Shown piece after piece: positions 12,284-33,054 of a stretch of DNA of 33,054 nucleotides (its first letter is position 1; each line of letters opens with the position of its first letter). The notes under the pieces are model-generated. The model was not told the origin of the DNA. It searched no databases and was given only the letters and a program-made list of their open reading frames with translations. Location: the IMG/VR virus record IMGVR_UViG_3300027985_000584, positions 1 through 33,054 of that record; one strand, written 5' to 3'. This DNA comes from a virus. The position numbers and the translations under genes were made by a program.

Positions 12284-12293
12284 AGGATAGAGG

Positions 12294-14224: not shown

Positions 14225-14226
14225 GT

Positions 14227-14982
14227 TTGGGACACATAAAGAAGCTGCTTTCAGGAAAAACAATACCGAAAAGGTCAATGACTCCATGTAGCATATGGAC
14301 AGACCTTTGCGAAAACATCCATTTGCACTACCGTAATCTCCGCCTGGAGTTCTCGGAAACTGAGTGGGCACACTTCCGGGCGGCGATAAATCACCTAGGA
14401 AAAGCGGTTGAACGTTGCTCTGTTGAGAACGGTTATGAAGAGGGCGACCCTAATTTTCTGATTCAACAGGTCTATAATTTCAGTCTTAAGCCTGACTCTG
14501 ACTATTACAAAAACCGTTCAACGATTGAGCTTCAGCGAGACGACACCGTTCATTTTCATTACAGGGATCTTCGTCTGCACTGGTCGAAACGCGAGTTCGT
14601 TGAAATAGCAAACATGTTCGTCGATGCAGTTGGAAAGTTCAACGCGGTTGAGCCTTTCCGGTATGCTGATGTAAAAGAACGCACGAAAGTCCTCTGCAAT
14701 ATCGAAGACATCCAGCCATACGACGAGGGCCACCGCCCGCTTGCAATAGACGAAGAACATCGGTCAGGGATTGAATTTATAAAGTCGGAGATCAAGAACG
14801 GTGTCAAGATACGCCCTATCCTGGTTAACACAGAGGGCCAACGCCTTGATGGATTCAAAAGGTACATGGCTTTTCTTGAGCTTGGTTTTGAGGAGATCTG
14901 GTGTTTCGTCGATCCGTTTGGAATCATGGGCGGGCAATCAAATCAATCACACATCGCAGACGAGGATAACGATGCTGAATAG
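14227..14982 (+). CDS. ParB-N-like domain protein with duplicated HYRxLRL motif
   Basis: A 251-residue protein starting at TTG 14227 behind a strong AAGGAG (14216-14221), two bases after the methyltransferase stop. Two copies of one motif occupy residues 32-62 and 109-138: H-x-HYR-(N/D)-LRL-x-x-S-x-x-E-(F/W) followed by a helix. This is an internal domain duplication. The C-terminal part (residues 165-228) reads IRPILV, then G-x-RLDGFKRYMAFLELGFEEI, which resembles the ParB/Srx-type fold in which a DGHRR-like segment binds nucleotide. It carries no DNA-binding HTH, so it is not a chromosome-partition ParB. Similar fusions occur near glycosylation genes in my recollection, but the activity is unknown. 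The end overlaps the next gene by 11 bases. Confidence 0.65.
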   Translation: MGHIKKLLSGKTIPKRSMTPCSIWTDLCENIHLHYRNLRLEFSETEWAHFRAAINHLGKAVERCSVENGYEEGDPNFLIQQVYNFSLKPDSDYYKNRSTIELQRDDTVHFHYRDLRLHWSKREFVEIANMFVDAVGKFNAVEPFRYADVKERTKVLCNIEDIQPYDEGHRPLAIDEEHRSGIEFIKSEIKNGVKIRPILVNTEGQRLDGFKRYMAFLELGFEEIWCFVDPFGIMGGQSNQSHIADEDNDAE

Positions 14983-15340
14983 GAGCAAGCCATACGGGAT
15001 CATCAGCGGGATAAATACTGACGGGGCCAGGTATGAGCAGGACGGGAAGAAATTCAGGGGAGATGGTACTCCGCTTGATGAGCAGCAGGAAGAGAATAAA
15101 GAAGTTGACGTAAGGCTATTACGGGGAGACGGTACGCCGCTTGATGAGCCGCTTGATATGCCGGAGATACAAGATGCTCCATTAACAAGGCTATTACGGG
15201 GAGACGTAACTCACATCGACGAGCCGCTTGATATGCCGGAGATACCAGATGCTCCATTAAAATACATCAACCAGCCGGTACATCACCGCAAAAAGCGCAA
15301 GGGGGATCATGGTCTGGAAACCGGAAAACCCAGAAGGTAA
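14972..15340 (+). CDS. Acidic tandem-repeat protein (RGDxTPLDE repeats)
   Basis: A much longer open frame exists upstream, but it lies inside the ParB-like gene. The ATG at 14972 with GAGG before it gives 122 residues. Two and a half repeats are visible: RGDGTPLDEQQEE (partial), then two 25-residue units beginning LLRGD, containing (T/H)-(P/I)-(L)DEPLDMPEI and ending in (Q/P)DAPL. The C-terminus is basic (HHRKKRKGDHG). It looks unstructured and repetitive and could be a surface-exposed or linker protein, perhaps an acceptor for the glycan enzymes beside it. It overlaps the following gene by 32 bases. Function is unknown. Confidence 0.6.
   Translation: MLNRSKPYGIISGINTDGARYEQDGKKFRGDGTPLDEQQEENKEVDVRLLRGDGTPLDEPLDMPEIQDAPLTRLLRGDVTHIDEPLDMPEIPDAPLKYINQPVHHRKKRKGDHGLETGKPRR
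15112..15261 (+). repeat. Two tandem 75-bp coding repeats
   Basis: Units 15112-15186 and 15187-15261 both start AAGGCTATTACGGGGAGAC and share a long identical stretch (GAGCCGCTTGATATGCCGGA) plus GATGCTCCATTAA near the end. They differ around the TCCGCTTGAT/TCACATCGAC region. A partial, older copy precedes them at about 15053-15080. The unit length is a multiple of three, so copy-number change keeps the frame. Confidence 0.9.
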
Positions 15341-17775: not shown

Positions 17776-18899
17776 TGGGCAGAGCAGTTCAAATTGACGC
17801 GATACTGGCGGGTGTCATTGACCCTAACACGGGTGCCCCCTGCGCGGGCGGGACAATATATTTTTATGAGCCGGGGGGCACGACGGGTAAGAACGTGTGG
17901 ACTGAAGCGGCAAAGAGCAACGACTACACTTCGTACACGCTCGACAACGCCGGTGCCGCGCATCTTTATGCCGATGGGATTTATGATGTTGTTATCAAAA
18001 ACTCTTCTGGCACCATAATAGCTTCGTGGGACGGATTGAAGCTGCGCTATCCAGATTTTGAGGCTACATCGATATCAGCCAGCTACACGCAGGAAACTGA
18101 CGACGACGCCATAGTTCTGTCTCCTGCCGCAACAGCGGCGGTTACGATAACGCTGCTCGATAGCGATGATTGGGAAGATAAACCTCTTGTCGTTGTAAAT
18201 GCAAATGATTCTTATGCCATAACGGTAAACGTTGATGGAGACTCGTCTGATTCAATCGATGGAGGATCATCAATCGTTATTCCAGTAGGCGCGTCCGCTG
18301 TGACTATTTTCAAATCCGGGACTACTTTCTATTCTTCCGGCAACGGAACGTCAAAGGTGCTGTCAACCGGTTCAACCGGTAGGTATCTTACGGTAACCGA
18401 TAACGGTGCCAAGGATGTAAGCGAAGACTTTGCGTCATCGTTCTACATGATGGGCGGGTCTGCATACTCAATGCGGCTAATATGCGCCAGGATAGACATT
18501 TCATACTCAGCGGCGAGCCAGATTAATGTAACAATAAGCTCGTCAACAAGCTACGGGTTCGAACCTCCCGCGACTGCGTCAAGCGGTGCATTGGCGGCGG
18601 GCGGATCTGCCAATGGATTTACTGTTTTTGCCGGCGGAATCTACGTCTCGTTCGCAAACACAATTATGTACCCACATGCAGCAGACACAGCGTATTTTAC
18701 GGGTGTGCTTCCTGTAAGCAATCCGGTGTATGTGATCACGACATCAGGCCCCCCGTCTTTCAGGGCGACGTATTCTAGCACCGCTCTTACTCTATATTAT
18801 TACGAAGATGGAGCTGCTGGAGACATAATAGCGGCACTGGCAACATCTGGAGATACCATCAGTGTAATACTGGCATATCTCATGAGGCCCGTAGCTTAA
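17775..18899 (+). CDS. Tail appendage or fibre-like virion protein
   Basis: A 374-residue beta-rich protein starting with ATG overlapping the previous stop. Residues 10-95 (ILAGVIDPNTGAPCAGGTIYFYEPGGTTGKN and on, through LYADGIYDVVI) match the small Ig-like or collar domain often found at the start of phage tail or baseplate appendage proteins, with the pattern G-x-x-x-D-x-x-G-x-P-x-x-G-G-x-x-x-x-YEPG. The rest is Ser/Thr/Gly/Ala-rich beta structure of the fibre type. It lies between the gp4- and gp10-like genes, a position where P22 has no extra gene. It probably decorates the tail hub. The family is uncertain. Confidence 0.6.
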   Translation: MGRAVQIDAILAGVIDPNTGAPCAGGTIYFYEPGGTTGKNVWTEAAKSNDYTSYTLDNAGAAHLYADGIYDVVIKNSSGTIIASWDGLKLRYPDFEATSISASYTQETDDDAIVLSPAATAAVTITLLDSDDWEDKPLVVVNANDSYAITVNVDGDSSDSIDGGSSIVIPVGASAVTIFKSGTTFYSSGNGTSKVLSTGSTGRYLTVTDNGAKDVSEDFASSFYMMGGSAYSMRLICARIDISYSAASQINVTISSSTSYGFEPPATASSGALAAGGSANGFTVFAGGIYVSFANTIMYPHAADTAYFTGVLPVSNPVYVITTSGPPSFRATYSSTALTLYYYEDGAAGDIIAALATSGDTISVILAYLMRPVA

Positions 18900-20410
18900 T
18901 GACTACACGCCAGATTACATTCGATAACGACGCTCCAGGAGTGCGCCTATTTGGACAGGGACCGCGCATAATCAACGGATTTATTGATAAGTCCGGCGCG
19001 CTTTGTCGTGTCCCTGGATACGCTCTTTTCAAGGATATGGCCCTTATAACAGGGGCTCCGGTAACCGGGGTATTTAGTGTGCAGAACACCTACGAATACC
19101 AGGGCCAGTCTATATTCTCAGATGTCTATTCGGATCGTGCCGAGATTCTGACAATCACCGCAGGTGGGCAGATATACAACGCGTGGTACTACGGTGGGGC
19201 CTTGACAAACGAGAGTTATTACACCTCTCTGTCGGATCAAGACCGATGGGTAAAGCTAAGCAAAAGCAATCCCGTAATATTCGAGTTCGGCAAGTATGAT
19301 ATCTATCCAGCTATTATAATGGCAGACGGCGCAGGTCAGCCGGTGATTTACGATGTGCAGAATAAGAGGCGTGTCGTTGACCCGGAGGCACCAAAACCGT
19401 GTTCTCACGTCGCAATGATAGACACGTATCTTATAGGCAACAATGTAGGTGAGCAGTATTTCGACATCTCTTACCCTGGTGATATCTGGAGGTGGGACGG
19501 CGATTTTGCCCAAGCGGTTTCTTCTTCAGACGACATCATGGCTCTTGCAAAGGTCCGGCGTAAGCTCGTTCTTGCCGGTGCCGACAGTATGGAGATATGG
19601 CGCAACGACGGGTCAACTCCATTCTCTCCTGAATATAATCATATAGAGGCTGGATTATCGGCAAAATACAGCCTGATAAATTGCGATAATACGCTCTATT
19701 GGCTCGATAAGTTCAAGCGAATAGTCGCATGCGATATCGCACAAAGCATTCGCCCTACAGTCATCTCAGACGCCCTCAACTCATCGATTGAGTACGCATC
19801 ACGCCAAAGCTACTCTCAATCTTATGATTGTGTGGGCGGGCACATGCAGACCGATGCGGGAAACTATTATATCGCCAATTTCGATAACCTTGAGATGGTA
19901 TACGCGATTAACACTGCCACCGGAAAGTGGTGTCAGCTCGGCAAGTGGGACGCTCACCGTGGTGAATACAAACGCTTTCCGCTGTGGGTTTTCGGGCAGT
20001 CAAACTCGTTTGGGTCTCTGGCGGGGAGTTGTCTTGACGCAAAGGTCCATAGGGTATCAAGCAAATTCCACACCTTCGACGGAGACGAAATACGCTCAGA
20101 GTTCCGCTCCAACATTATCCGAAGCGCAGGGTCTGGTCGCAACATCGTCAAAAAACTGATGGTCGGAGTAAGCCGCACCGCAGACAAGCCGGACGCAATC
20201 ACAATAGAGCCGTCAATATTGATCAGGTGGCGCGATGACGGTGCTACCGAGTGGAGCATGTGGCGCGAAATCTCAATCTCTCCCACAGGGCGCACGGAAT
20301 GGGACTTCCAGCTCTACCGGTGCGGGTCGTATAGAAACTCGAGGCAATACGAGGTTGTAATGCTCGGAGACTATCCGTACCAAGTTTCGTATATTGCGGA
20401 GGACGTGTGA
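18899..20410 (+). CDS. Tail hub protein (P22 gp10-like packaged-DNA stabilisation protein)
   Basis: A 503-residue beta-propeller-like protein, starting at ATG overlapping the previous stop. Segments such as PGYALFKDMALITGAPVTG, DDIMALAKVRRKLVLAGADSMEIW and SLINCDNTLYWLDKFKRIV are repeated propeller-blade-like strands. The C-terminus ends SRQYEVVMLGDYPYQVSYI, as in P22 gp10-type proteins, which bind below gp4 and keep DNA inside the filled head. Size (P22 gp10 is about 470 residues) and gene order support the assignment. Confidence 0.82.
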   Translation: MTTRQITFDNDAPGVRLFGQGPRIINGFIDKSGALCRVPGYALFKDMALITGAPVTGVFSVQNTYEYQGQSIFSDVYSDRAEILTITAGGQIYNAWYYGGALTNESYYTSLSDQDRWVKLSKSNPVIFEFGKYDIYPAIIMADGAGQPVIYDVQNKRRVVDPEAPKPCSHVAMIDTYLIGNNVGEQYFDISYPGDIWRWDGDFAQAVSSSDDIMALAKVRRKLVLAGADSMEIWRNDGSTPFSPEYNHIEAGLSAKYSLINCDNTLYWLDKFKRIVACDIAQSIRPTVISDALNSSIEYASRQSYSQSYDCVGGHMQTDAGNYYIANFDNLEMVYAINTATGKWCQLGKWDAHRGEYKRFPLWVFGQSNSFGSLAGSCLDAKVHRVSSKFHTFDGDEIRSEFRSNIIRSAGSGRNIVKKLMVGVSRTADKPDAITIEPSILIRWRDDGATEWSMWREISISPTGRTEWDFQLYRCGSYRNSRQYEVVMLGDYPYQVSYIAEDV

Positions 20411-20583
20411 AGAGAATAATTACTCCGCCTGACGAGATCACGCCGGAGAACATGCGGGCGTTCTTTATTGAGGTATGCAACGTGATCAATGAGAGATTCG
20501 GAAACATCCCGGACGACTCTGATGCTGTTGATACTGCCGGGGCAGTTTCGGATCTAAACGATTTGCTGGAGGTGCTGCGGTGA
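20407..20583 (+). CDS. 58-residue hypothetical protein after the tail hub gene
   Basis: GTG at 20407 overlaps the end of the hub gene; the stop is TGA at 20581-20583. It encodes a short acidic protein (begins MKRIITPPDEITPENMRAFF, includes NVINERFGNIPDD). In P22 the tail needle gene 26 occupies this place, but this ORF is far too short and lacks needle heptads, so I do not call it a needle. The next gene begins inside its stop codon (GTGA). Confidence 0.65.
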   Translation: MKRIITPPDEITPENMRAFFIEVCNVINERFGNIPDDSDAVDTAGAVSDLNDLLEVLR

Positions 20584-21098
20584 AGGTTCGTAGACTTTTC
20601 CTCCGTGACTATGCGTTTGTTCGTGATTGCATGCTCCATGCGGATGTTTTCCCGTTCATCCATGACGATGGAACTGGTGATGAAAACGCGTTTGCAAGGA
20701 TGCTTTTGAGCGTTGTTGATAATGACGCGTTTATTTTTCTATCTCCTGGTCCAGGATGCGTGTTTATGCTTTCACCGACATTCTCAGGTGTCTACACCGT
20801 TCACACCGCTGTAAAGCCTGAATACAGGGGTAGAACTGCGATAGAATACGGAAAGGCGGCAATAGGAAAATTCTTTGAAAAACAAGATCATATCAAGCTG
20901 ATTTCATTCGTTCCGGGATGCAACCGGAGGGCAAAGATATTCGCACTGAAGTGCGGATTTAGAACAGAGGGTACATTACGAAAGTCGTGGAAACAGGGCG
21001 GAATTGTATATAACGTTGACATCGTAGGTTTAACGAGACAGGAGTGGGAATTATGCCAGCAGCAGCAGTGCCCATCGCGGTTGGGGTTGGTGGTATAG
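20580..21098 (+). CDS. GNAT-like acetyltransferase domain protein (P22 gp14 position)
   Basis: GTG at 20580 overlaps the previous stop. Of 172 residues, the core is GNAT-like: YTVHTAVKPEYRGRTAIEYGKAAIGKFFE (residues 72-100) is the beta4 strand plus the acyl-CoA pyrophosphate loop (R83-G-R-T-A), followed by LISFVPGCNRRAKIFALKCGFRTEG, the beta5/alpha4/beta6 region of the fold. P22 gp14 and relatives (DUF2824) sit in the same place, before the ejection protein genes, so this is likely the same family. The acceptor is unknown; proteins of the ejectosome are an inference. It overlaps the next gene by 46 bases. Confidence 0.75.
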   Translation: MKVRRLFLRDYAFVRDCMLHADVFPFIHDDGTGDENAFARMLLSVVDNDAFIFLSPGPGCVFMLSPTFSGVYTVHTAVKPEYRGRTAIEYGKAAIGKFFEKQDHIKLISFVPGCNRRAKIFALKCGFRTEGTLRKSWKQGGIVYNVDIVGLTRQEWELCQQQQCPSRLGLVV

Positions 21099-22231
21099 CG
21101 GCGGGTTACTTCGGGAGTAAAGCGCAGGCAGATGCGGCGAAATCTTCTGCCAAAGCTCAAAATGATGCTACAATGGCGGGTATTGACCTTCAGCGCGAGA
21201 TGTATAATCAGGCAAGGTCTGATTACTCTCCGTATAGGCAGGTTGGCCAGAACGCTATACCGCTTTACAATGAGCTTACAAGGGAGCGCGACAAGGGAAC
21301 GCAGAATGCGTTGACTGATTACCAAAATTACCAGGGCCAGAATCTTCCGGGATCGAATCTTAGCGTGAACTTGGCAAACCCGAATCAGTACACGGTTGAC
21401 ACGAATATTGCCAAGGTTAACCCGAACAGTTTCAACGCCATCAACACGAAGTCATACGCGCTTGACCCTTCGCAGTATCAGGCAGATTCGTCTAACGTGA
21501 TCAATTTCCAGATGGACCCTACCGACGCGGTCTACAAGTGGAAGCAAGATCAGGCCCAGAAGGGCGTCGCCCAAAACATGGCGGCGGCTGGTCTATCCGG
21601 CTCAAAGTACGGAATGAGCCTATCGCAAGACGCAAATATGCGCGTTGCCGCCGACGAGGCAGACAGCCAGTTCAACCGAGAGATGCAGAAGTATGGCGTT
21701 TTGAACCAGCAGCAGTCCGACCTTTATGGTCGCACTGCAGATCAGAATAACCTCCAGTATGCGAGAGATTACACAAAAGAAAGCGACCTGTACAACCGCA
21801 CCTCAGAACAGAATGCAATGGATTGGCAACGTCAGTATCAGCAGCAGAGCGACCTATTTAACCGCACTAACCAAAACGCCCTTACCGGCTATCAGGTGCA
21901 GGCTGATAACTATAATAGGGCATACCAGAACGCGACTTACACAGATCAGCTAAAGCTTAACCAGCTCGCCAATGCGTTCAATATGAACAACACTATGGCC
22001 AACCAGGATTATTCAAAGGCCCTTGATGCCGTTAAAATTGGTGCCGGTGCTGCCGGAACAACCGGTGGATGGGCTATGGGTGTCGGGCAAAATGGTGCAC
22101 AGATGATGCAGAATCAGGGGGCTGCAAACGCAAACGCAATTACCGCGCAGGGCAACGCGGCTGCCGGAATGTACGGAGGTATGTACAACACAGGTCTAAA
22201 TGCTCTCGCAATGTACAATATGTATCGATAG
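21053..22231 (+). CDS. DNA ejection/internal virion protein, gp7 position
   Basis: A 392-residue protein starting at ATG 21053 with GGAG 8 bases upstream; a GTG three codons earlier is possible. Residues 3-21 form a Gly/Ala-rich hydrophobic segment (AAAVPIAVGVGGIAAGYFG), as in membrane-active ejection proteins. Then comes a helical, Asn/Gln/Tyr-rich body. Residues 220-272 contain three copies of (Q/E)SDL(Y/F)-x-RT with exactly 22-residue spacing (S222, S244, S266) and a fourth degenerate copy at 284, so a regular helical array. The C-terminus is Gly/Ala/Asn/Met-rich. It is probably carried in the virion and injected with the DNA to form the trans-envelope conduit. Confidence 0.75.
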   Translation: MPAAAVPIAVGVGGIAAGYFGSKAQADAAKSSAKAQNDATMAGIDLQREMYNQARSDYSPYRQVGQNAIPLYNELTRERDKGTQNALTDYQNYQGQNLPGSNLSVNLANPNQYTVDTNIAKVNPNSFNAINTKSYALDPSQYQADSSNVINFQMDPTDAVYKWKQDQAQKGVAQNMAAAGLSGSKYGMSLSQDANMRVAADEADSQFNREMQKYGVLNQQQSDLYGRTADQNNLQYARDYTKESDLYNRTSEQNAMDWQRQYQQQSDLFNRTNQNALTGYQVQADNYNRAYQNATYTDQLKLNQLANAFNMNNTMANQDYSKALDAVKIGAGAAGTTGGWAMGVGQNGAQMMQNQGAANANAITAQGNAAAGMYGGMYNTGLNALAMYNMYR

Positions 22232-22237
22232 GGGTTT

Positions 22238-23527
22238 ATGATGCCATACGACGTTTGGGGTAATATCAATCAGGGGCAAACAAACTTCATGAACGCACTT
22301 GCCATGCGCAAACAGCAGGAGCAGGCCGACGCAAGAAACGCAATCCTTGCACAGCAGACGCAGGCAAGTATGCGCATGAAAGAGGACGAGTTTGCACGGT
22401 CGCGCCAAATGGATCAAATGAAGATCGAAGAGGCTCAGCGGGCGCAGCAGGTTCAGCAGGTAAAGGGAGCCTACAATATCCTCAACTCAATTAACAGTCA
22501 AGCCGATCTTGACCGTGCGCGTGGATACATGCAGCAGAACGCACCGGAGTATCTGACTCAGGTTCCTGAAGTGTATGACGATAAAGGAAAGGCCGCGATT
22601 GACGGGTATAAAAACCTTTACCGGAACGTTGCTGTTGATCAATTCAAAATGACTGAACGGTGGGTAAAAGACGCGAACGGAAACCGGTATCCTGTCCTTC
22701 TCGACCAGAACGAAAACCCTGCCGACATGCAGCTTCCGGAAGGATACCACTGGATCAACAAAGATCTTGAGAAGACAGATATCGAGCAGCAAGGCGCGAT
22801 TGACAAGCAGCGGGCGAGTGATGCGGCGGCAATGGAGCGTGAGCAGGCTGGAAATCAGAGCGCCATGAATATTGCCAAATACAACGCCGGTGCAGATCTT
22901 GAGAAAGAGAAGCTGAAGCTTCAGTCTGAAGAGACGCGGGCGCGGATGCAGCAGCTCGCGGCGTCGGGCGCGAAAACTTTTGAGAATGAGCAGAAGCTTC
23001 GTAAAGAGTTTGATGCCCTACCTGAAGTAAAGACGTTTATCGAAGTTGACCGCAATTACAACATGATGGATCAGGCTGTAAAAGATATCAAGAAGCAAGC
23101 TGGTGACAGCGGAAAGCCTTGGGCATCTTATTCATACGCAGATCAGGCCCTAATAACAACGTTCAACAAGATGCTCGATCCAACGAGCGTTGTCAGAGAA
23201 AGCGAGTATGCGCGAACATCTGAGGACCAAGCCTGGCTTTCTCGTTTAAAGTCAGGGTGGGATGCGATTTATTCTGGAGGAAAGCTTAACGAGCCTGAGC
23301 GCAAGGCAATTTTCAGAATGGCAAAAAATTTCCGGGATGCATCGAAAGAAAAGTACGATGTGCAGGACAAGTTTTATAAGGGACTGTTCAAGGATTATGG
23401 CCTTAATAAAGAGCATATGTCATCAGTTCGTGGTACACCGAATGAAATAGCAGCGGATTACGAAAAGAGCCAGGGTGCACAGAATTATCAATCAATGGCC
23501 GAAGAATTCCTTAATGGGTTGCAATAA
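22238..23527 (+). CDS. DNA ejection/internal virion protein, gp20 position
   Basis: A 429-residue protein with ATG 22238 (a second ATG follows) after GGGG. Gln/Ala-rich helices (residues 25-90) end in a coiled coil. Residues 140-170 form a small domain containing MTERWVKDANGNRYPVLLDQ. The C-terminal third has ALITTFNKMLDPTSVVRESE and AWLSRLKSG, a segment I recognise from virion-associated proteins of podoviruses and other tailed phages (TF-x-KMLDP-x-SVVRE). The gene order of three large helical proteins after gp14-like fits P22 gp7, gp20 and gp16. The stop overlaps the next start (TAATG). Confidence 0.75.
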   Translation: MMPYDVWGNINQGQTNFMNALAMRKQQEQADARNAILAQQTQASMRMKEDEFARSRQMDQMKIEEAQRAQQVQQVKGAYNILNSINSQADLDRARGYMQQNAPEYLTQVPEVYDDKGKAAIDGYKNLYRNVAVDQFKMTERWVKDANGNRYPVLLDQNENPADMQLPEGYHWINKDLEKTDIEQQGAIDKQRASDAAAMEREQAGNQSAMNIAKYNAGADLEKEKLKLQSEETRARMQQLAASGAKTFENEQKLRKEFDALPEVKTFIEVDRNYNMMDQAVKDIKKQAGDSGKPWASYSYADQALITTFNKMLDPTSVVRESEYARTSEDQAWLSRLKSGWDAIYSGGKLNEPERKAIFRMAKNFRDASKEKYDVQDKFYKGLFKDYGLNKEHMSSVRGTPNEIAADYEKSQGAQNYQSMAEEFLNGLQ

Positions 23528-25677
23528 TGCCTACGCTTCAAGATGTATTTTCAAATTCGAAATTCTACGATCTCCCTGAAGATGCGCAGTATCTCGTCAT
23601 TGATAAGATTGATAGCCGGTTCGGAAAGATGCCGAAGGAGGCGCAGGATATCGCCTACGGCCGCATGAAAGAGAAGTGGGGATCATCTTCCGGTCCGCAA
23701 ATGCCCACAGATGATTTGCAAGTCTCCCACGATACATCAAGCTCCCCGCAACCGGTGGAAGAACAGCCGCAAGAAGCACCACAAATACCAGATCAAATGG
23801 CGGCGGCACACGATCCAACACCGCCTGAGAAACGTGGCATCATCGACCGGATAGGCGATACAATAGAGCAAAGAGTACCACTTGAAAATAGGCAGGATAT
23901 CGCAAACACCGTGCGCGGGGTTACGGTTCCGGTTGCTGGCCTGGCAGGTGCCGGTCTTGCATCTCCAACTGTCGCAGGTGTTGCTGCTGGAGGGGCACTT
24001 GGGGCGACTGCTGCTTCAAAGGGTAACGATTGGCTTGATCAAAGAATATTCCGAACTCAGCAACATAGAAGTGCAAAAGAAGAGTTGATCGACACCGGCA
24101 AACAGGTCGCACAAAATGCTTTGATGTACGGCGCTCCAGCAACTTCGGCGGCGGCAGGTGTAGGGGTTGTCAAGAATGCGATCACTGGTGGACTTGGTTA
24201 TGGGGCGTCTGAAGAGGTCGAAAAACTCGACAAAATGCGCCGGGGAGAGTATCGGCCGCAGAGTGCGAAAGAAGAGATAAAGCAGGCCGCAAAAAATATC
24301 GCTGTCGGCACCGTAATGGATTTGACAGGTCAGGCTGTCGCAGGCACTCCCCGTGCTGCCGGTGCGGTTGCGAATGCTGCGCGTAATAAGCTCAACAACT
24401 CGGCGCTTGCGCAGGACGTAGCGGCGGCTGAGTCTCAGGGAATTAAGGTTGCCACGAGTGACGTTAAGCGGCCAAGAACATTTATGGGAAAGGCGGCGCA
24501 ACGGGTGGGCGAAGCTGTCCCGGTTGTCGGTACCGGGCGGATGCGTAGGCAGCAGCAGGAACAGAGGATTAAGGCAGTCAAAGATACCATTTCCGAGTTC
24601 GGCGTTGACGCTGATACTAACAAGGGAGTGTTCGATGATGTGATGAGCGATCTTTCGGCGCGTAGGAAGTCTGACCTTAGCAAGTACGCCAGATGGAAGA
24701 CAGACGTGTTCAACCGGCTTGACAGCGCAGGCAATGTAAATGTTGACCGCACGATAGCGACGATAGACAATGAAATAGCACGACTAAAAGGAATAAGCGA
24801 AACAGAATTTGACCCCGCTATCGCAAAATTTGAGTCCCTTAAGCGAGACATCCAGGGAAAGAGCATATCCAACGTCGATGAGAACCGCAGGGTGTTAGGA
24901 AAGATCTATCAGGCTCCAGACCTGGCCACAATTCGAGACACGACAAAGAAGTCTGTTGACAAAATATACGGTTCACTCGTTGGTGATATGGGTGATTTCA
25001 TCAATTCAAGCGGTGGGAATAAGGATCTGCGGCAGTGGAGGGTTGCCAACAAGCGCTTGTCTGATATGGCAGGGGAGATTGAATCAGGAACCCTTAAGAG
25101 CGTTCTCAAGCGCGGTGACGCAACGCCTGAAGATGTTAAAAAACTACTGTTCTCAAAGAAACCGAGCGAGATTAGATTGCTTGCAAAGAATTTAACCCAA
25201 CGCGGCCGGGAGAACGCCAAGACTGCAATCATGTTTGAGGCTGCAGAGCGAACACTTAAACGCGCACAATCAGAAGGTTTTGATAACATCAGTCCGGAGG
25301 CCTTCTCAACAAACGTTAAAAAATTGGGAGACTCAATAGGCGTATTTTTTAAAGGACAGGATCTACAGAGAATCAAGGGATTACAGCGGGCGCTTGAACT
25401 CACAAAACGGGCGGGAGAGTTTGCGGCGTCTCCACCTACCGGAGTGCAAAACTACCCGTTTATCAGTGGCGCAGCACTCGGAGGTCTTCTCGGAGGGACA
25501 AAGGCGGTTGCTGTTGCCGGAAGCATAGGCGGAATAGCGCGGGTTTATGAATCAAGACCTGTTCGCAACCTGCTCCTACAACTTTCTTACTCTCCCAAGG
25601 GAAGCCCTCGTGAAGCCGCGCTATACCGTAGTCTGATGCTACAGATAAAAAAACAGAACGAGCGAGAACGTAAGTAG
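23527..25677 (+). CDS. Large DNA ejection/internal virion protein, gp16 position
   Basis: A 716-residue protein overlapping the previous stop (TAATG). The N-terminus (TLQDVFSNSKFYDLPEDAQYL) is a short helical motif followed by a Pro/Gln-rich linker (residues 55-100). Three Gly/Ala-rich hydrophobic regions (about 131-164, 196-225, and 640-675) could insert into membrane, as expected for ejection proteins. The middle (230-630) is charged helix with coiled coils. P22 gp16 is of similar size and is required for DNA delivery. No lytic transglycosylase motif is visible. It is the last gene before the terminator at 25771. Confidence 0.75.
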   Translation: MPTLQDVFSNSKFYDLPEDAQYLVIDKIDSRFGKMPKEAQDIAYGRMKEKWGSSSGPQMPTDDLQVSHDTSSSPQPVEEQPQEAPQIPDQMAAAHDPTPPEKRGIIDRIGDTIEQRVPLENRQDIANTVRGVTVPVAGLAGAGLASPTVAGVAAGGALGATAASKGNDWLDQRIFRTQQHRSAKEELIDTGKQVAQNALMYGAPATSAAAGVGVVKNAITGGLGYGASEEVEKLDKMRRGEYRPQSAKEEIKQAAKNIAVGTVMDLTGQAVAGTPRAAGAVANAARNKLNNSALAQDVAAAESQGIKVATSDVKRPRTFMGKAAQRVGEAVPVVGTGRMRRQQQEQRIKAVKDTISEFGVDADTNKGVFDDVMSDLSARRKSDLSKYARWKTDVFNRLDSAGNVNVDRTIATIDNEIARLKGISETEFDPAIAKFESLKRDIQGKSISNVDENRRVLGKIYQAPDLATIRDTTKKSVDKIYGSLVGDMGDFINSSGGNKDLRQWRVANKRLSDMAGEIESGTLKSVLKRGDATPEDVKKLLFSKKPSEIRLLAKNLTQRGRENAKTAIMFEAAERTLKRAQSEGFDNISPEAFSTNVKKLGDSIGVFFKGQDLQRIKGLQRALELTKRAGEFAASPPTGVQNYPFISGAALGGLLGGTKAVAVAGSIGGIARVYESRPVRNLLLQLSYSPKGSPREAALYRSLMLQIKKQNERERK

Positions 25678-25737
25678 TTGCAAGCGAGATTGATAATTAG
25701 TATATTGATCATGATTAAATAACCGGTTACTGACTGG

Positions 25738-25762
25738 CCTTTGCTGCCAGATCTGAGCAAAG
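25738..25762 (+). other. Small inverted repeat in the intergenic stretch before the surface-protein module
   Basis: CTTTGCT (25738-25744) pairs with AGCAAAG (25756-25762), 7 bp with an 11-base loop. It lies in the 140-base gap between the ejection gene and the exported-protein genes, just upstream of the terminator. I saw no convincing promoter in this gap. It may be a processing or antitermination element. Confidence 0.4.
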
Positions 25763-25770
25763 ATACCAAG

Positions 25771-25804
25771 ACGCCCGTTGCGACAATGCAGCGGGCGTTT
25801 TTTA
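25771..25804 (+). terminator. Rho-independent terminator after the ejection genes
   Basis: ACGCCCG (25771-25777) pairs with CGGGCGT (25792-25798), extended inward by TGC/GCA, and is followed by a T-rich run. The SD of the next gene (GGAGG, 25808-25812) follows at once, so read-through must supply part of the downstream expression unless a promoter was missed. Confidence 0.85.
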
Positions 25805-25816
25805 TTTGGAGGACGC

Positions 25817-26275
25817 ATGAAGAGACTATCTATTGTTTTTGTACTGATTCTTGCGCTTTGCGCGAATGCTGGTGCGGCTGGAACAATGACCGGGTGTGCG
25901 GCGAGTGATTGGGTTGACATCGGTAATGAAAATTGGGCCTGCACGTTAAGCTGGACGGACGATACGAACGGGACAACCGGGACGATATATATTCCCGCGA
26001 GTCTTTACGGACTATGGGCGGGTGCGGCAATTACTGACCCTGGGAGCACTGCGCCAACTGACAACTACGATATTGTGATCAGCTCAACGGTATCGAGCCG
26101 GTGGACAGGTTTAGACATATTCGACGGCAATCTGCTTAACCGGGACACGTCCACGACAGAGAAGGCTACTTGGAGCATGGCACCGTTCCCGGTATACGGA
26201 AACTTGACGTTTGCTTTGTCAGGAAATGCGGTCAACAACGCCACCGGAACCATAACTCTAATTCTTGCGAAGTAA
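25817..26275 (+). CDS. Small exported beta-rich protein (Sec signal peptide)
   Basis: A start at ATG 25817 (GGAGG 4 bases upstream) is better than the open frame's earlier start. It gives 152 residues. Residues 1-21 are a textbook Sec signal: MKR, a long hydrophobic core (LSIVFVLILAL), then CANAGAAG with an A-x-A cleavage site. The mature part has C28 and C45 and short beta strands with Asn/Thr/Gly-rich turns (TDDTNGTTGTIYIP; NNATGTITLILAK). It could be a periplasmic or surface-exposed phage protein. It is the first gene of a set that share this type of leader. Function unknown. Confidence 0.75.
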   Translation: MKRLSIVFVLILALCANAGAAGTMTGCAASDWVDIGNENWACTLSWTDDTNGTTGTIYIPASLYGLWAGAAITDPGSTAPTDNYDIVISSTVSSRWTGLDIFDGNLLNRDTSTTEKATWSMAPFPVYGNLTFALSGNAVNNATGTITLILAK

Positions 26276-26278
26276 GCC

Positions 26279-26479
26279 ATGGCAAACACAACAATAAAAG
26301 ACCTCATCATGAAGCTGGACCCGGATTGCAACAAGCCGCAGTACACCTATGAATTTTCAAACGGGCGACGGTTCTATAGCAACGATATGCCATCCGCAAC
26401 AGATCAGTACGACGACGCGATCCTTGACGGCGACGATAATCCCATCTTGGATGGAAACGGAGATTGGTTGACATGGTAA
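26279..26479 (+). CDS. 66-residue acidic protein with ILDG repeats
   Basis: ATG at 26279 directly after the previous stop; it overlaps the next gene by 7 bases. The C-terminal half has AILDGDDNPILDGNGDW, two (I/L)LDG(D/N) units with many Asp, reminiscent of small calcium-binding loops but without a full EF-hand. Unlike its neighbours it lacks a signal peptide. It may be a chaperone or connector for the fibre next to it; that is inference. No family was recognised. Confidence 0.6.
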   Translation: MANTTIKDLIMKLDPDCNKPQYTYEFSNGRRFYSNDMPSATDQYDDAILDGDDNPILDGNGDWLTW

Positions 26480-27651
26480 AGCGCGTTGCAATCGTTGTCG
26501 TCTGCTTGGCCGTTGCATCCGGCGCGATTGCTGCCGGAATCACTTGGTGGGATTATGACAACACGAGTTCATTGGAGGATACCGACGAGTTCATGGTTGG
26601 GTCTTCCGAGCGTTCCGGTGCGGGACTGCGCAATATAACGTGGCCTGATCTAATCACCGCCATATCTGGAGAGGACTTAGGTATCGTCCAGGATGAGACA
26701 CCATCATCAGCTAACTACAACGGCGACACGACACACGCTCTAAGCCAGGACGACTTCTACGATTTATGGTCTCTAATTGACACCGACATGGACGGAGACC
26801 TAACGAATGAGACGTGGTTCGCCCTGGCTGGTGGTGGTGACATAACGGCGATATGGTCAGGGTCTACAGGAGATATCTCCGCCCTTACTGCCGGTGGAGG
26901 TGACTCTCTCGACGCTACAGCGGCGGACTACTCCATCCCATGGGTTCTCGCGACAGACTGCTCGGCGGTGACAACCGTTGGCAGGGCATGTATGGACAGT
27001 GATGACGGACAGCTATACATGGGAGACGGGGCAGACGCTGTTAATGTAGGGCCAGGATCATATAACGACCTCGCTTCTGACGGGATAGTTGTAAACTCTT
27101 CCGGTACTCCATACGCCAGAACTCTTACCGGGTCAGGCCTTGCAGTTGCATCAAATGGAGACGGAACCGCAGGAAATCCAACAATCACCGTCACGGCGGC
27201 TTCTGCAGGCACAATCAATACCGGGACAAGCGATTCAACGGCGGTAACGCCTGATGCTCTCGCCGGATCTATCCTAGGGACACAGATAGCAACCCTTCGA
27301 GTCATTGAGCCTGACGACACGCTCGCAACCGGAGACGGTCAATTCTACTTCACAATTCCTTACGAATTCAACGGAATGAATCTCGTAAACGCCCACGCCG
27401 CAGTTTACACAGCGTCGTCGTCCGGTACTCCGACTGTTCAGATCTACAATTTAACCGATACGGTAGACATGCTCTCTACCGAGATAACGATAGACGCCTC
27501 TGAGACAAACTCTTACACCGCCGCAGCGCAGCCGGTAATTGACACGGACTACGACGATGTGGCGGCTGGTGATATCATCCGGGTTGACGTTGATGTGGCC
27601 GGGACCGGGACCGCAGGGCTTGACGTGATACTCTCTTTTAGGTTGCCATGA
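26473..27651 (+). CDS. Tail-fibre-like protein with N-terminal signal peptide
   Basis: 392 residues from ATG 26473 (GGAG 10 bases upstream). The N-terminus MVKRVAIVVVCLAVASGAIAAG is a Sec-type signal with AIA/AG cleavage. The following ITWWDYDNTSSLEDTDEFMVGSS resembles the start of many phage tail fibre proteins. Residues 230-275 hold T-x-x-S-x-AVTPDALAGS, a motif at the fibre end common in such proteins. The C-terminal domain (EFNGMNLVNAHAAVYTASSSGTPTVQIYN, then LDVILSFRLP) is a beta-sandwich found repeatedly at phage fibre ends and in host recognition modules. A signal peptide on a fibre is unexpected, because fibres normally assemble in the cytoplasm. Confidence 0.75.
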   Translation: MVKRVAIVVVCLAVASGAIAAGITWWDYDNTSSLEDTDEFMVGSSERSGAGLRNITWPDLITAISGEDLGIVQDETPSSANYNGDTTHALSQDDFYDLWSLIDTDMDGDLTNETWFALAGGGDITAIWSGSTGDISALTAGGGDSLDATAADYSIPWVLATDCSAVTTVGRACMDSDDGQLYMGDGADAVNVGPGSYNDLASDGIVVNSSGTPYARTLTGSGLAVASNGDGTAGNPTITVTAASAGTINTGTSDSTAVTPDALAGSILGTQIATLRVIEPDDTLATGDGQFYFTIPYEFNGMNLVNAHAAVYTASSSGTPTVQIYNLTDTVDMLSTEITIDASETNSYTAAAQPVIDTDYDDVAAGDIIRVDVDVAGTGTAGLDVILSFRLP

Positions 27652-28541
27652 TGATGAAGAAGATTGTCGCCATAGCGCTTATACTGATAGCGCAGCAGTG
27701 CTACGCCGCTAAGGTGATTTTCTTCTATAATTCGCGCGATACCGCAAGGCTCGGACACTCAACGAGCAACCCCGCAAGTACGGACACGTACTCAAGCGGA
27801 ACGTATGGATTTTATACGCAAAGAACTGCAACGTCGAACTTCACGGCCCGCAGTCTTTGGGCGTATTTAAAAGGCTCTGGTTGGGAAAATGCATTTTGCC
27901 TAACAGGAGGGGTTTACTCCGACGACGGTGCCGACGCTCCAGACGCAAAGCTTGGCCAGACATCAGAGTATGAGCCGCCAGACGTTATTCAATATCGCTG
28001 CATGCAGCTATCATCTCCACTATTCGTCGCGGCAGGCACTAAATACTGGATCGGCTACAACACGGAGTCTGGCTATGGTGTTCAATACGGATATGACGCA
28101 GGCGCTGTAAATAAATTCAAATCAACATCCACAGCATGTACGACACTACCTGATACTTTTGCTGGTTCGGCTGTATCAGACGGTGATGACGGTGTCTATC
28201 TGAGTTCTGAGGCATGCCCATCCTATCCTGGGATAAGCTCTGCGTCAATAGCTTCTGACGGTGTCACGCTTACGGTAACTTTCTCCGAGTCTGTATCACA
28301 TGGTTCAGGTTGGGGCGCAAGCGACTTTTACACGAACTGTTCATACGCCGGGAATATTGCGCTCACCTACTCATCAGGAGACGGGACGCCGGAACATGTT
28401 TTTACAACAGCGGAGACGGTGGAAAGTTACTATCTGTGCACTTTGTATTTTACCGGTGGCGCAGATTCAGTTGAAGACAATGAGGGAAACGACTTGGAAA
28501 AAATAAACTCTGACCCGATCACAAATAACAGCACTCAATGA
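27648..28541 (+). CDS. Exported protein with C-terminal Ig-like (SwmB-type) domain
   Basis: 297 residues from the first ATG (27648), overlapping the previous stop. The next two codons are also ATG, so the exact start is uncertain. Residues 1-21 (MMMKKIVAIALILIAQQCYAAK) are a signal peptide, CYA/AK cleavage. Residues 22-190 are a carbohydrate-binding-like beta-sandwich with six cysteines. The C-terminal 90 residues contain ISSASIASDGVTLTVTFSES, the sort of Ig-like SwmB domain that follows carbohydrate-active modules in bacterial surface proteins. It probably recognises a glycan. No catalytic residues are evident. Confidence 0.72.
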   Translation: MMMKKIVAIALILIAQQCYAAKVIFFYNSRDTARLGHSTSNPASTDTYSSGTYGFYTQRTATSNFTARSLWAYLKGSGWENAFCLTGGVYSDDGADAPDAKLGQTSEYEPPDVIQYRCMQLSSPLFVAAGTKYWIGYNTESGYGVQYGYDAGAVNKFKSTSTACTTLPDTFAGSAVSDGDDGVYLSSEACPSYPGISSASIASDGVTLTVTFSESVSHGSGWGASDFYTNCSYAGNIALTYSSGDGTPEHVFTTAETVESYYLCTLYFTGGADSVEDNEGNDLEKINSDPITNNSTQ

Positions 28542-29335
28542 TAAAACGAATCTCCATAATTCTCCTTATTCTTCCGGTGTCGGCCTATGCCAGCTACATG
28601 TTTATCAAAGGGCCTACTGGCGGCGGCGGTGGGACACATACGGATTACACCGCAGACGGAAATTGCGTCGCCGCGTATTTTCTAAACGGGACGAACTCGG
28701 AGACTGACCAGAGCGGTAATTCTCAGACGCTAACGATGCAGAATACCGTTGTGCAAGGTACGACGCTACCATCTGGTTACTCCGGTTATAGCCGAACATC
28801 CGATAGTGCTGTGCTCGATAGACTTTACAAAAGCGATGGCGGAACAACAGATATAAACGGAGCTGATCAGGCTATATCAATATGCGCGTGGATACGTCCC
28901 ACAGATGCCGGTGCGGACAGGTATTTTGCGAGTAAGGGAACGCCAGCATCAGACATCAGTTGGCTACTATACGTATCAACTTCCGACCAAAAAATACGCG
29001 GCGTTATCTCGTCGGACGGATCGACAAAAACATATGTAATACCTGCGACAACAGTAGTGGAGGACTCTTGGTATCACGTCTGCATGGTGTACGATGACAC
29101 AGACATCAGAATGTATATCAACGGTTCGCTTGATTCTAATGGGCTGGACAATCCTAAAGCATACACTTCGGGCCTTTATGATAGCACATCGTACTTCACT
29201 CTCTACGGTTCTGGCGGGTCGGGTTACTACGGAGAAATAGACGAGTTTATCATGCTCGACAGGGCGCTTAATTCGGCAGAGGTTACGGAGATTTACACCT
29301 ACGGAATTGACGGCACGAAGGGGGCGAATGACTAG
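28538..29335 (+). CDS. Exported LamG/concanavalin-like jellyroll protein
   Basis: 265 residues; ATG 28538 overlaps the previous stop (ATGA). The signal peptide is MIKRISIILLILPVSAYAS. After a Gly-rich linker (GPTGGGGGTH) comes a LamG-like domain: CVAAYFLNGTNSETDQSGN, then ISICAWIRPTDAGADRYFASKG, then WYHVCMVYDDTDIRMYINGSLDS, and a C-terminal YGEIDEFIMLDRALNSAEVTEIYT. These strand motifs are typical of Laminin_G_3 domains in bacterial and phage surface proteins that bind carbohydrate or protein ligands. It is followed without a gap by the large lyase-like gene. Confidence 0.82.
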   Translation: MIKRISIILLILPVSAYASYMFIKGPTGGGGGTHTDYTADGNCVAAYFLNGTNSETDQSGNSQTLTMQNTVVQGTTLPSGYSGYSRTSDSAVLDRLYKSDGGTTDINGADQAISICAWIRPTDAGADRYFASKGTPASDISWLLYVSTSDQKIRGVISSDGSTKTYVIPATTVVEDSWYHVCMVYDDTDIRMYINGSLDSNGLDNPKAYTSGLYDSTSYFTLYGSGGSGYYGEIDEFIMLDRALNSAEVTEIYTYGIDGTKGAND

Positions 29336-32300
29336 GCGTTTTTATATACTGTTCGCCCTGCTGCTAATTTCTGTCAACGTTGAAGCTGCTACGCTTATCA
29401 GCGAGAACTTCAACGACCAAGCATACACTTCGCCGTTGACTTTATACAACGGCATTGCGGGCGGATACGACACCTCGATCACTTACAGCTCGTCTGTTCG
29501 CCATGGATCTACAGGCTACAGTGTCCACGTTGACCATGCTCAGGGCGACATCATGGCGATACTGTCAGGCGCGCAGAACTATCATTCATCCGGCGTCTAT
29601 TATCGGTATTGGGTCTATTATCCAAGCACTTACCAATGGTGTGTAGAAGCTGGTGGAACGCAAGGCAACGTAAAGCTGTTGAAGATGGCGGGTGACCCTG
29701 GATGGGATCTCGAAGTAATTTATAAAGAGTCTGGGGCAGAGCCGACGCAGATTCAAACGTTCTGGAATACCAGCGGCGGAGGAGTAGTATCTCATTACAA
29801 CAGTATAACGAACGACTATGGAGGGCATAATTATCTAACAAGCTCTATCTGGCACAAGGTAGAGATCTATATGCAGATACCAAATGCAATACATGTAAGT
29901 ATTGATGATCAAACGGTTTACAATAACACCAACGCTGATATTAGGACACCTGCATCTGTCTGGACCGGGACGCAGCAGTTTATATCTATCCGTGCCTTGG
30001 GTGGATGTGTTGACCCTCCGAGCGGGCATGGTGATTGGTATTTTGACGACATCACTGTTGTCTCAGGGGAGGGGGATTTATCAAGTAACGAGCCGAGTGA
30101 GCCGGGAACGAGCGACACTGTTTCACCGGTAGTTTCGGCGTTTACAATACCGAGCACGTCAAGCTCTCTGACTATCCCAATAGCGACTTTCACGGCAACG
30201 GATAATGTCGGCGTTACCGGGTACATGGTCAACGAGTCGTCAACATCCCCGTCGGCGTCGGCGTCCGGATGGTCGTCATCGGCACCTTCGACATACACAA
30301 CAAGCTCCCAAGGAACAAAGACTCTATACGCATGGGCAAAAGACGCCGCAGGTAACGTGAGCGCGGCGGCAAGCGATAGCTGCGTTGTCACCGTGTCTTC
30401 TGGCGGTGAGTGCACTCACTACGTCGCCAAAACCGGTAACGATAGCTACAACGGTACATCTACGTCAACGCCGTGGTTAACAATCGCCCACGCCGCATCT
30501 GTAGCCGATCCTGATGATGTAATTTGTATCAGGTCTGGAACATACGGCGAAGACGTTACCGTATCGCGCAGCGGAACGAGCGGCCACCCGATCACTTTCA
30601 GGAATTATCCTGGTGAGTCTCCGCTTCTCGCATCTGGAAACAACAACACCGGCATGGCGTTCTGGATAAGCGGGTCATATGTCAAACTGTATGGTTTGAC
30701 CTTTCGGAGGCAATATATCTGCGGATCTGTAAATACCTGGAGTGTAGGCCTTTTCGGTGATCACAACGAGGTTGATTCGTGCAGCTTCTTGGGAAAATCA
30801 GGAGACGCAGAGTACGATGCTTATACCCTATGTGGAGGAACATCTCGAACCGGAAGAGAGATCGGTATCGCCCTGCACGGAGGAGACTACTCCTATGTCC
30901 ACGATAGCACGTTTGATGAGCTAAGCTTCGATGGGATAACAGTTTTTGACAATGGTACCAATGCGGCTAAGTACTGGAAGATAGTAAATAATACTTTCAG
31001 CGACTATCTCGGCAACGGTATTGATGCGGCATCTGCAACTTACGAATATATGTTCGGGTTGATCGAGGGCAATACTTTCGAAGGAAGCATGACTAGCGAT
31101 GGAGTTCAGTTTAATCACGGAGCCTACATCTTAAACGCTGCACCGTCAACCTGGGGCGTCCGCATCAGGAATAACGTTTTTAAGTGCTCATCTGAGCAGT
31201 GCACGGCGGAGAACAGCATAGATCTTAAGGGTGCTAGCTACATCGTGATTGAAAATAACCTCATCCAGGGCGGAACCGGAAACAATGATGGTCTGCACGA
31301 TTACGGGAGCACTGGCGTAAACGACACAAGCGGAGGATACGGAGGTGTAGCGACCGGAAGCGGAATGCCGTCAGAGTACATCGTGATTCGTGGTAACACA
31401 TTTGTAGACAACGCTGGCGGGGTGGTGGCGATGTCTGGTTATCGAATCTATAACAACACGATTATCAATAACGATAGGAGCTACTCTGGACCAAATAGTT
31501 CGATAGGCCCTCGCACCGGGGCATCCATGGCATGGTTTAGCGATGTCAAATTTGTAAATAACATGATAGGCGGAAATGCCTACTGTAACGTATCTTTGCG
31601 CACGATCTACAGTAGCAACTACTCTGATTACAATCTGTTTACGACAGACGCCGGGACTCCCTACATGTGCGCGTTTAGCGAGGAAAGCTCCGCACAGATG
31701 GCGCTTGGTACGTTCCAGACGTGGCTATCAGGGCGTAGCATTGGTGGTAAAGAGGCGCATTCGCTTACAGGTGTCCCTGATTTTGACAACGCATCTTCAG
31801 GATCTTACGGGTCCAGCCTTAGTATTGACGACTTTATGATTGGGTCGTCTTCTGCGGCAATCAACAAGGGAGGCAATTTAACCACTGCAACAAATAGCGG
31901 GTCTTCTTCAACGACGCTAACGGTTGGTGACGGAACATTTTTTACAAGTGGTATGTCTGCAGTCGGAGTTGCTGGGGATCGAATCCAGATCGGTGGAGAC
32001 GTTGAAGCTACGATATCCGGCGTGAGCGGGAACACGATCTATCTTTCCTCTGCTGCTTCATGGTCAAGCGGTGACGGAGTTATCTGGTGCAAAAACGGAG
32101 ACTGCCCGTCAGATACGATTGATATCGGCGCGTGGGAGTATGGCGCTTCTTCTACGAGCACTGACACCGGGACAGATACGAGCACGGGCACAGACACCGG
32201 ACCCGCCACGCTTTCAGGCGGATCTCCAAGCGGAGTTTTATCTGAGTACACAACTAGCGCGACGGTTTCGGCAAATACCGACGTTCCCGCTGTTGTCCAT

Positions 32301-32990
32301 TACTCAACATCTCCAGGAGTTGCTTACGACAGCATGTCGGTGATGGACGAAACCAGTGGAACTCTTCATCAATTGGGGGTTACAGGGCTTTCTTCAGGAA
32401 ATACTTACACGTATTACCTAAAGGCCTACTCTGGAGATGAGGATTACGTTGTATCTTTCTCAATAGCGGCATCTTCAGGCGGCGGAGGAGAGACACCGGA
32501 GAGCCTGTTGAACGACCAAACTTATTCTGATGACAGCGGAGACTTTCACGCTCTTTACCCCGTGACCCATCTTTGGGACGAAGATGTCTCTGATAACGGT
32601 ATCTCAGGAGGACTCGCAGGTAGCCTTTGGGTAGAGTTTGATTTAGGCGCACAGTACGATTTGACGAGCGCTAAAATTTACGGAGACAACTATGGAAACT
32701 GGTATTCGTTAAACTGGACGATGGAGTACAAGGTAGAATCTGGAGATTCGTATTCTACGGCGTTCTCAGAGCAAGACTGCTTTGGGCTGCAATGGTTTAC
32801 GGAAGAATTCACGGTAACCGGCAGATACGTTAAATTCACCGTTGTTGGCAATGCCTCATATCCAGGAACTCAAATATACGAAATGCAGCTTTTTGGTGAT
32901 CTTGTAACGCCTGCGGCACCGGGAACTGATCCGATATCATTTTCTTCAACTCAGGTACGCTTTAACGGTTATAAATGGATATTTAACTGA
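29328..32990 (+). CDS. Multidomain beta-helix tailspike-type protein with signal peptide
   Basis: 1220 residues from ATG 29328 behind AAGGGGG. The signal is MTRRFYILFALLLISVNVEAAT. Domains in order, residues approximate: a jellyroll-like lectin or lyase domain (20-260, WYFDDITVVSGEG at its end); an Ig-like domain (265-370, ends AWAKDAAGNVSAAASD); a right-handed beta-helix (375-850) opening HYVAKTGNDSYNGTSTSTPW with repeated N-N-x-F/I-x-x rungs; a Thr/Asp/Gly-rich linker; a fibronectin-like domain (980-1060); and a discoidin (F5/8 type C) domain (1070-1200). Such proteins are depolymerases or glycan-binding spikes. The active site cannot be pinned down from sequence alone. Confidence 0.82.
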   Translation: MTRRFYILFALLLISVNVEAATLISENFNDQAYTSPLTLYNGIAGGYDTSITYSSSVRHGSTGYSVHVDHAQGDIMAILSGAQNYHSSGVYYRYWVYYPSTYQWCVEAGGTQGNVKLLKMAGDPGWDLEVIYKESGAEPTQIQTFWNTSGGGVVSHYNSITNDYGGHNYLTSSIWHKVEIYMQIPNAIHVSIDDQTVYNNTNADIRTPASVWTGTQQFISIRALGGCVDPPSGHGDWYFDDITVVSGEGDLSSNEPSEPGTSDTVSPVVSAFTIPSTSSSLTIPIATFTATDNVGVTGYMVNESSTSPSASASGWSSSAPSTYTTSSQGTKTLYAWAKDAAGNVSAAASDSCVVTVSSGGECTHYVAKTGNDSYNGTSTSTPWLTIAHAASVADPDDVICIRSGTYGEDVTVSRSGTSGHPITFRNYPGESPLLASGNNNTGMAFWISGSYVKLYGLTFRRQYICGSVNTWSVGLFGDHNEVDSCSFLGKSGDAEYDAYTLCGGTSRTGREIGIALHGGDYSYVHDSTFDELSFDGITVFDNGTNAAKYWKIVNNTFSDYLGNGIDAASATYEYMFGLIEGNTFEGSMTSDGVQFNHGAYILNAAPSTWGVRIRNNVFKCSSEQCTAENSIDLKGASYIVIENNLIQGGTGNNDGLHDYGSTGVNDTSGGYGGVATGSGMPSEYIVIRGNTFVDNAGGVVAMSGYRIYNNTIINNDRSYSGPNSSIGPRTGASMAWFSDVKFVNNMIGGNAYCNVSLRTIYSSNYSDYNLFTTDAGTPYMCAFSEESSAQMALGTFQTWLSGRSIGGKEAHSLTGVPDFDNASSGSYGSSLSIDDFMIGSSSAAINKGGNLTTATNSGSSSTTLTVGDGTFFTSGMSAVGVAGDRIQIGGDVEATISGVSGNTIYLSSAASWSSGDGVIWCKNGDCPSDTIDIGAWEYGASSTSTDTGTDTSTGTDTGPATLSGGSPSGVLSEYTTSATVSANTDVPAVVHYSTSPGVAYDSMSVMDETSGTLHQLGVTGLSSGNTYTYYLKAYSGDEDYVVSFSIAASSGGGGETPESLLNDQTYSDDSGDFHALYPVTHLWDEDVSDNGISGGLAGSLWVEFDLGAQYDLTSAKIYGDNYGNWYSLNWTMEYKVESGDSYSTAFSEQDCFGLQWFTEEFTVTGRYVKFTVVGNASYPGTQIYEMQLFGDLVTPAAPGTDPISFSSTQVRFNGYKWIFN

Positions 32991-33054
32991 TGAATAATAC
33001 TGTATTTAAATTGATGTGTGCCCTTGCGCTTGTTTTTATAGCATCTCTATCGGT
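32990..33054 (+). CDS. Start of a further exported protein (3' end outside window)
   Basis: ATG at 32990 overlaps the previous stop (TGATG). The 21 codons in view read MNNTVFKLMCALALVFIASL, a polar start then a hydrophobic core, so a sixth signal-peptide protein in the series. The rest lies past the window end. Confidence 0.6.
   Translation, partial: MNNTVFKLMCALALVFIASLS

Follow-up and report, generated by a model that had tools for sequence, protein, structure and literature searches.

Predicted signal peptides on a cassette of fiber- and adhesin-like genes in a P22-like podovirus, and the distribution of such leaders among related proteins

It is assumed that tailed phages build their appendages in the cytoplasm, and the locus considered here raises the question of why six of seven consecutive genes in a tailed phage should start with Sec-type signal peptides and where their products would go. 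The window, which is the whole stretch of DNA analyzed, is an entire 33,054-base record from a virus collection, and the module of leadered genes runs off its end.

The module and the phage that carries it

Terminase, portal, and capsid genes were recognized by family matches at positions 4564, 6933, and 10836, respectively, and a head closure protein (Hc3) resembling P22 gp10 (18899–20410, plus strand; phrog_578, 2.4e-25) places the phage among the P22-like podoviruses. The DNA ejection genes upstream of the module (21044–25677, plus strand; phrog_598, phrog_13634, and phrog_770) carry no leaders. No close relatives of the window were found in viral contigs through gene 23527 or gene 18899, a search for the host in bacterial genomes gave three weak matches only, and genes 25817, 26473, and 28538 returned no isolate relatives or just a short or archaeal-virus match. 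Between the capsid and tail genes (12294–16859) lie a gene weakly resembling glycosyltransferase 9, an FkbM-type methyltransferase, and a Methyltransf_11 protein, for which sugars or appendage proteins could be the modification targets. The gene between head closure and the ejection genes (20580–21098) has a weak DUF2824 match, and Xanthomonas phage PBR31 and phage Pam1 have annotated acetyltransferases at a similar place.

Signal peptides were scored with a self-written, rule-based grammar for Sec/signal peptidase I substrates (basic n-region, hydrophobic core, and A-x-A site). In an E. coli test region, this scorer gave values of at least 8.8 for five of five exported proteins and at most 7.6 for inner-membrane proteins, and no cytoplasmic protein passed; in Rhodoferax phage P26218 it selected 1 of 44 genes, the same count as the single SignalP-positive gene reported by the authors of that genome (PMC4657236). 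The first-pass annotation, whose coordinates, frames, and N termini proved correct, had counted six of the seven module genes as leadered, and this count stands, with strong signal peptides, predicted to be cleavable, on five complete genes in which all three elements of the grammar are present, and a probable sixth, at the contig end, with n- and h-regions. The structural and ejection genes upstream never score above 4.7. The sole other high score in the window (9.3) belongs to a 133-residue gene far upstream of the structural genes (1639–2040), which has a lipoprotein-like leader (MKTIITITACLLCLSCANYSS) and no family match.

In 11 P22-like phages, 9 of 537 ORFs (∼1.7%) pass the scorer, a base rate at which a run of six in seven has a probability of ∼1.5e-10; even at a rate of 5%, leaders on five of the six complete genes would have a probability of ∼1.8e-6, both values applying to a region that was picked post hoc. 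Given this base rate the run is not a product of chance, and chance hydrophobic N termini are ruled out by the base rate together with the scorer controls.

All seven genes are on the plus strand. Gene 1 (25817–26275) encodes a signal peptide at residues 1–20 (MKRLSIVFVLILALCANAGA/AGTM, score 12.9) and a 132-residue β jelly-roll domain (AlphaFold2 pLDDT 89.6), the predicted fold of which matches the cement chains of Pam1, KHP40, and GP4 with Z values of 7.0–7.5 that are within background. The 66-residue product of gene 2 (26279–26479) is, as originally described, without a signal peptide by the rule-based score, and PHROG and Pfam searches gave no match for it. In gene 3 (26473–27651), residues 1–20 (MVKRVAIVVVCLAVASGAIA/AGIT, score 12.9) precede a tail-fiber-like protein with a C-terminal knob at about residues 258–392 (model pLDDT 88), which in structure most closely matches the C-terminal domain of the tail fiber of Agrobacterium phage 7-7-1 (Z 9.1); no virion-anchor domain was found in it by PHROG or Pfam, and its mature N terminus is short and dissimilar to the long anchors on leaderless fibers. 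Gene 4 (27648–28541) has a leader at residues 1–20 (MMMKKIVAIALILIAQQCYA/AKVI, score 10.7) followed by 277 residues that include six cysteines and have no family match in PHROG or Pfam. The leader of gene 5 (28538–29335; residues 1–18, MIKRISIILLILPVSAYA/SYMF, score 12.6) is followed by a concanavalin/LamG-type lectin domain at residues 108–249 (Pfam PF13385, 3e-21), and that of gene 6 (29328–32990; residues 1–20, MTRRFYILFALLLISVNVEA/ATLI, score 10.75) by a multidomain protein of 1200 residues, toward the C terminus of which lies a weak match to F5/8 type C (PF00754, E 2e-4, below the Pfam cut-off). Gene 7 (32990–33054) begins with a basic start and a hydrophobic core, and the contig ends after 21 codons (MNNTVFKLMCALALVFIASLS), with the cleavage site beyond view. 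Shine-Dalgarno motifs are present at the module starts save at 28538, whose start and the stop codon of the preceding gene overlap. The leader sequences are not copies of one another, and no lipobox (+1 Cys) was found in the module genes, which in this respect are not bacterial lipoproteins of the Llp/Cor/Bor-like kind.

An intrinsic-terminator-like hairpin of 15 pairs (25768–25801, plus strand), by far the strongest in positions 20000–33054, lies directly 5′ of the module. Because it ends 16 nucleotides before the first start codon, there is no room for a promoter between the two; a single weak promoter-like site precedes the hairpin, and the hairpin itself may be an attenuator placed between ejection genes and module. 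So strong a terminator between module and structural operon could also mark a set of secreted proteins that was acquired as a moron or from a host, serves lysogenic conversion, and has no relation to particles, and the weak match in gene 6 is to a kind of domain known from exported proteins. However, at the related locus L022 the hairpin is not conserved and a leadered homologue shares 4 bp with the ejection gene, leaving no gap; the knob marks gene 3 as a phage fiber, relatives of the module genes occur in the virion operons of unrelated phages, and there is no integrase among the family matches of those window genes that were searched. The G+C content of the module equals that of the remaining window, on which ground a foreign insert was rejected by composition. 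A moron origin is therefore considered very unlikely.

Leader state among relatives of the module genes

Profile scans of viral and metagenomic contigs for the gene 1 domain (family 1) gave 80 further loci, to which a leader state was assigned by the same scoring procedure; distinct loci comprise 19 leadered and 47 leaderless members. The leaderless proteins mostly start with MAGTVT or similar, and in leadered proteins the corresponding stretch is ...A/AGTVT. Cutting as predicted would expose exactly residue 2 of the leaderless form as the new N terminus in 11 of the 19, and in 13 the cut is at most one residue off. On the tree of mature domains leader state changes 11 times, at least seven of these changes being forced by well-supported branches. 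The nearest family 1 member to the window, L018, is leaderless, as is its entire neighboring module. As to whether homologues share the leaders, a point on which the first-pass annotation had staked its reading, the outcome is thus mixed, leaders being present on some and absent on many. Leadered members have no excess of cysteines in the mature protein (0.74 per domain versus 1.2 in leaderless ones), so oxidative folding is not an evident reason for export, and disulfide formation was rejected as its explanation. A leaderless relative of the gene 1 domain is also found in the Methanosarcina virus MetMV (L099, 7953–8378), and the family therefore reaches archaeal viruses.

Leaders are coupled across neighboring genes. 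Other leadered genes occur within 6 kb at 15 of the 19 leadered family 1 loci versus 6 of the 47 leaderless ones (Fisher p = 5e-7), and 35 of 157 neighbor genes are leadered around leadered loci versus 6 of 316 around leaderless loci; with phylogenetically independent pairs, 5.0 of 7 were for the coupling and 0.1 against (median p 0.06). The leadered genes occupy positions in virion operons: 3′ of the major capsid gene and 5′ of the neck genes in L016 and L027, between portal or terminase and capsid in L074 and L050, after a tail tip protein like λ J in L126, and after ejection genes in L022 and the window. The phages that host these blocks are unrelated, and leaderless family 1 relatives have the same head/tail operon positions. 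The designation of the module products as tail proteins was initially a guess; the fiber-type knob in gene 3 and these operon positions favor it, and the products may be parts of the virion. In the terminase-capsid interval of L050 there are five leadered genes in a row (9244–14058), and the locus also has a ParA-like gene (∼647). A mixed arrangement is seen in the leaderless loci L039, L059, and L070, where the next gene after the domain is leadered, its mature product starting AVTVTVNG or similar.

The C-terminal knob of gene 3 (family 2) has 28 relatives in viral contigs, and this shared knob identifies the gene product as a fiber. The majority of family 2 are leaderless fibers with ordinary fiber starts, the leadered members being L106, L116, L118, L124/L125, and L126; leadered neighbors accompany all of the leadered members versus about 1 of 19 leaderless ones. 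In the leadered L106, the long N-terminal virion-anchor domain of the leaderless L144–L146 is missing. Two tandem genes of L118 (7473–9145) have near-identical leaders (MKKYILVIISLLLLIFSSSLYC), which points to a leadered gene that duplicated recently. When the profile of family 2 was compared with those of family 1 and of family 3 (the latter described below), the three families proved unrelated.

One option raised at the outset was that the leaders stay on the proteins as membrane anchors; in a variant of it, uncleaved leaders would serve as hydrophobic plugs holding the proteins in the membrane or on the tail. The leader cores are hydrophobic enough for membrane spanning, and in the family 2 leader of L118 (MKYIKILAVLLLVLVVGYN) no clear cleavage site is seen. 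This possibility is nevertheless disfavored, and appears highly improbable, given the A-x-A-type sites at the expected distance, the sharp conservation boundary at the site, and the coincidence of the mature N terminus with that of leaderless relatives. Going by what is established about the Sec pathway, the leaders of the window very probably direct the proteins to the periplasm, where signal peptidase I would cleave them off.

Leadered fibers in cultured phages and comparison with known systems

Tail-region leadered genes are present in cultured P22-like relatives, namely P26218 gp24, two genes of Acetobacter phage phiAX1, and PBR31 orf035. The last adjoins the spike gene and matches gp19 of Burkholderia phage BcepC6B; both proteins are leadered, and they are annotated as "putative structural protein" and "tail fiber protein," respectively. 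In the accessible part of the PBR31 paper, the leader of orf035 passes without remark. Like the module genes of the window, these two encode fiber-type proteins that have a strong cleavable leader and lie beside the main fiber or spike; unlike them, each is a single leadered gene, with a sequence unrelated to that of the window's genes.

Among the best 80 relatives of this group (family 3) in viral contigs, 33 distinct members are leadered and 33 leaderless, in a list biased toward the leadered query. Mean identity is 32% in the leaders and 70% in the first 34 mature residues; the leaders are therefore a property kept while the sequence drifts, in keeping with the earlier proposal that they are independently maintained. 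The best-conserved stretch of the whole protein is directly after the cut (0.86), as would be expected of a docking element, but this motif could be a general shaft motif. The knob of PBR31 orf035 is common to classical anchored fibers of Pectobacterium and Klebsiella phages. Thus gp52 of Pectobacterium phage CB5, a classical podovirus fiber, has the same C-terminal knob as leadered family 3 proteins but is leaderless and has a long N-terminal virion-anchor domain that is missing in BcepC6B gp19. No sequence with a leadered knob was found to encode a leaderless copy of that knob as well, which indicates that the leadered version is no decoy paralogue, and a decoy of the virion's own fiber was rejected on this ground.

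Exported phage proteins and phage coats with signal peptides are already known. Receptor-blocking lipoproteins of the T5 Llp type and λ Lom and Bor are phage proteins that are Sec-exported to the envelope; the module differs from these in having no lipobox and in being a multigene adhesin/fiber cassette in a virion operon. The coat proteins of filamentous phages are virion proteins made with signal peptides, and the particles are extruded through the membrane, whereas the window belongs to a tailed, packaging phage with terminase and portal. The cement or decoration proteins of Pam1, KHP40, and GP4 are jelly-rolls of a size similar to gene 1, and the placement of gene 1 relatives, which often follow the capsid gene, is cement-like; however, the fold match is at background level, no sequence relation is evident, and cement proteins are assembled from the cytoplasm. 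The first-pass annotation knew of no described system of this kind, and our search of the open-access literature likewise found no description of leadered tail fibers as a class.

Possible joining of particles or action at the envelope

The reading that we prefer, tentatively and as something short of probable, is that the module is a late cassette of exported, cleaved adhesins and fibers in a P22-like podovirus, the products of which attach to particles or to the envelope at about the time of lysis. Late in infection, the products would cross SecYEG into the periplasm, where signal peptidase I would remove the leader and leave a mature start equal to that of leaderless relatives after loss of Met; the jelly-roll, lectin, and trimeric fiber domains would then fold outside the cytoplasm. 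Lysis would mix the compartments, and the mature N terminus might bind finished particles as a late decoration, or envelope sugars, so that host binding is extended or tuned. Late decoration is slightly favored over the binding of envelope sugars. Decoration proteins bind finished heads in vitro, which makes late joining at lysis physically plausible.

This proposal rests on computed features, namely the leaders, their exact junction with the mature start, the recurrent changes of leader state, the coupling across the module, and the placement in virion operons; export and cleavage in vivo and the joining of particles at lysis are inferred from them. It is also supported by the predicted folds, which resemble tail-fiber knobs and, at background level for gene 1, capsid cement proteins, and by the leader state, which as judged from sequence switches also in the unrelated fiber families 2 and 3. 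The joining of particles in particular would be consistent with the position in virion operons, the mature start shared with cytoplasmic relatives, the failure to find a leaderless knob copy in the same sequence, and the conserved mature N terminus of family 3. On the other hand, Sec by itself reaches the periplasm only, and with the virion-anchor domain missing from leadered fibers the usual docking route is absent, which counts against particle joining.

The same observation can be read differently, with the leader standing in for the anchor domain in fiber families 2 and 3 of proteins that are secreted and never become parts of the virion. As soluble adhesins or enzymes they would act on the infected cell's envelope, capsule, or matrix; they might, for instance, mask receptors so that progeny escape debris, exclude superinfection, or loosen the matrix. 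Lectin- and carbohydrate-binding-like domains in the module would suit such roles. In BcepC6B, PBR31, and P26218 a leadered gene is located at, or just 5′ of, the lysis genes, and two cultured phages also have leadered enzymes in the vicinity: PBR31 has an esterase near the lysis genes, and phiAX1 has a GH66 (dextranase/glucanotransferase-type) enzyme in the tail operon, just 5′ of its gp10 homologue (L141, 27387–29312). The filling of the same head/tail operon positions by leaderless relatives, the flipping of leader state with the start of the mature protein unchanged, and the failure to find, in the same sequence, a leaderless copy of a binding domain to be masked all argue against purely secreted proteins, a reading that we regard as only slightly less likely than the preferred one.

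The occurrence of leaders on fiber-like proteins of many unrelated tailed phages, cultured ones included, fits poorly with a view of appendage assembly confined to the cytoplasm. A wider generalization, about which we are slightly more doubtful, is that many tailed phages make their appendages partly via the host Sec system: fiber or decoration proteins would be exported, undergo processing and folding in the periplasm, and attach to finished particles at lysis, and lineages would alternate time and again between a cytoplasmic and an exported form of one protein. The cultured carriers BcepC6B, PBR31, P26218, and phiAX1 make these proposals testable now. If the leaders of such a widespread class, evolved many times over, do function in export, there would be a second, periplasmic or lysis-time route of assembly, or else a large unrecognized class of secreted phage adhesins on the infected cell, and either outcome would alter the annotation and prediction of receptor-binding proteins.
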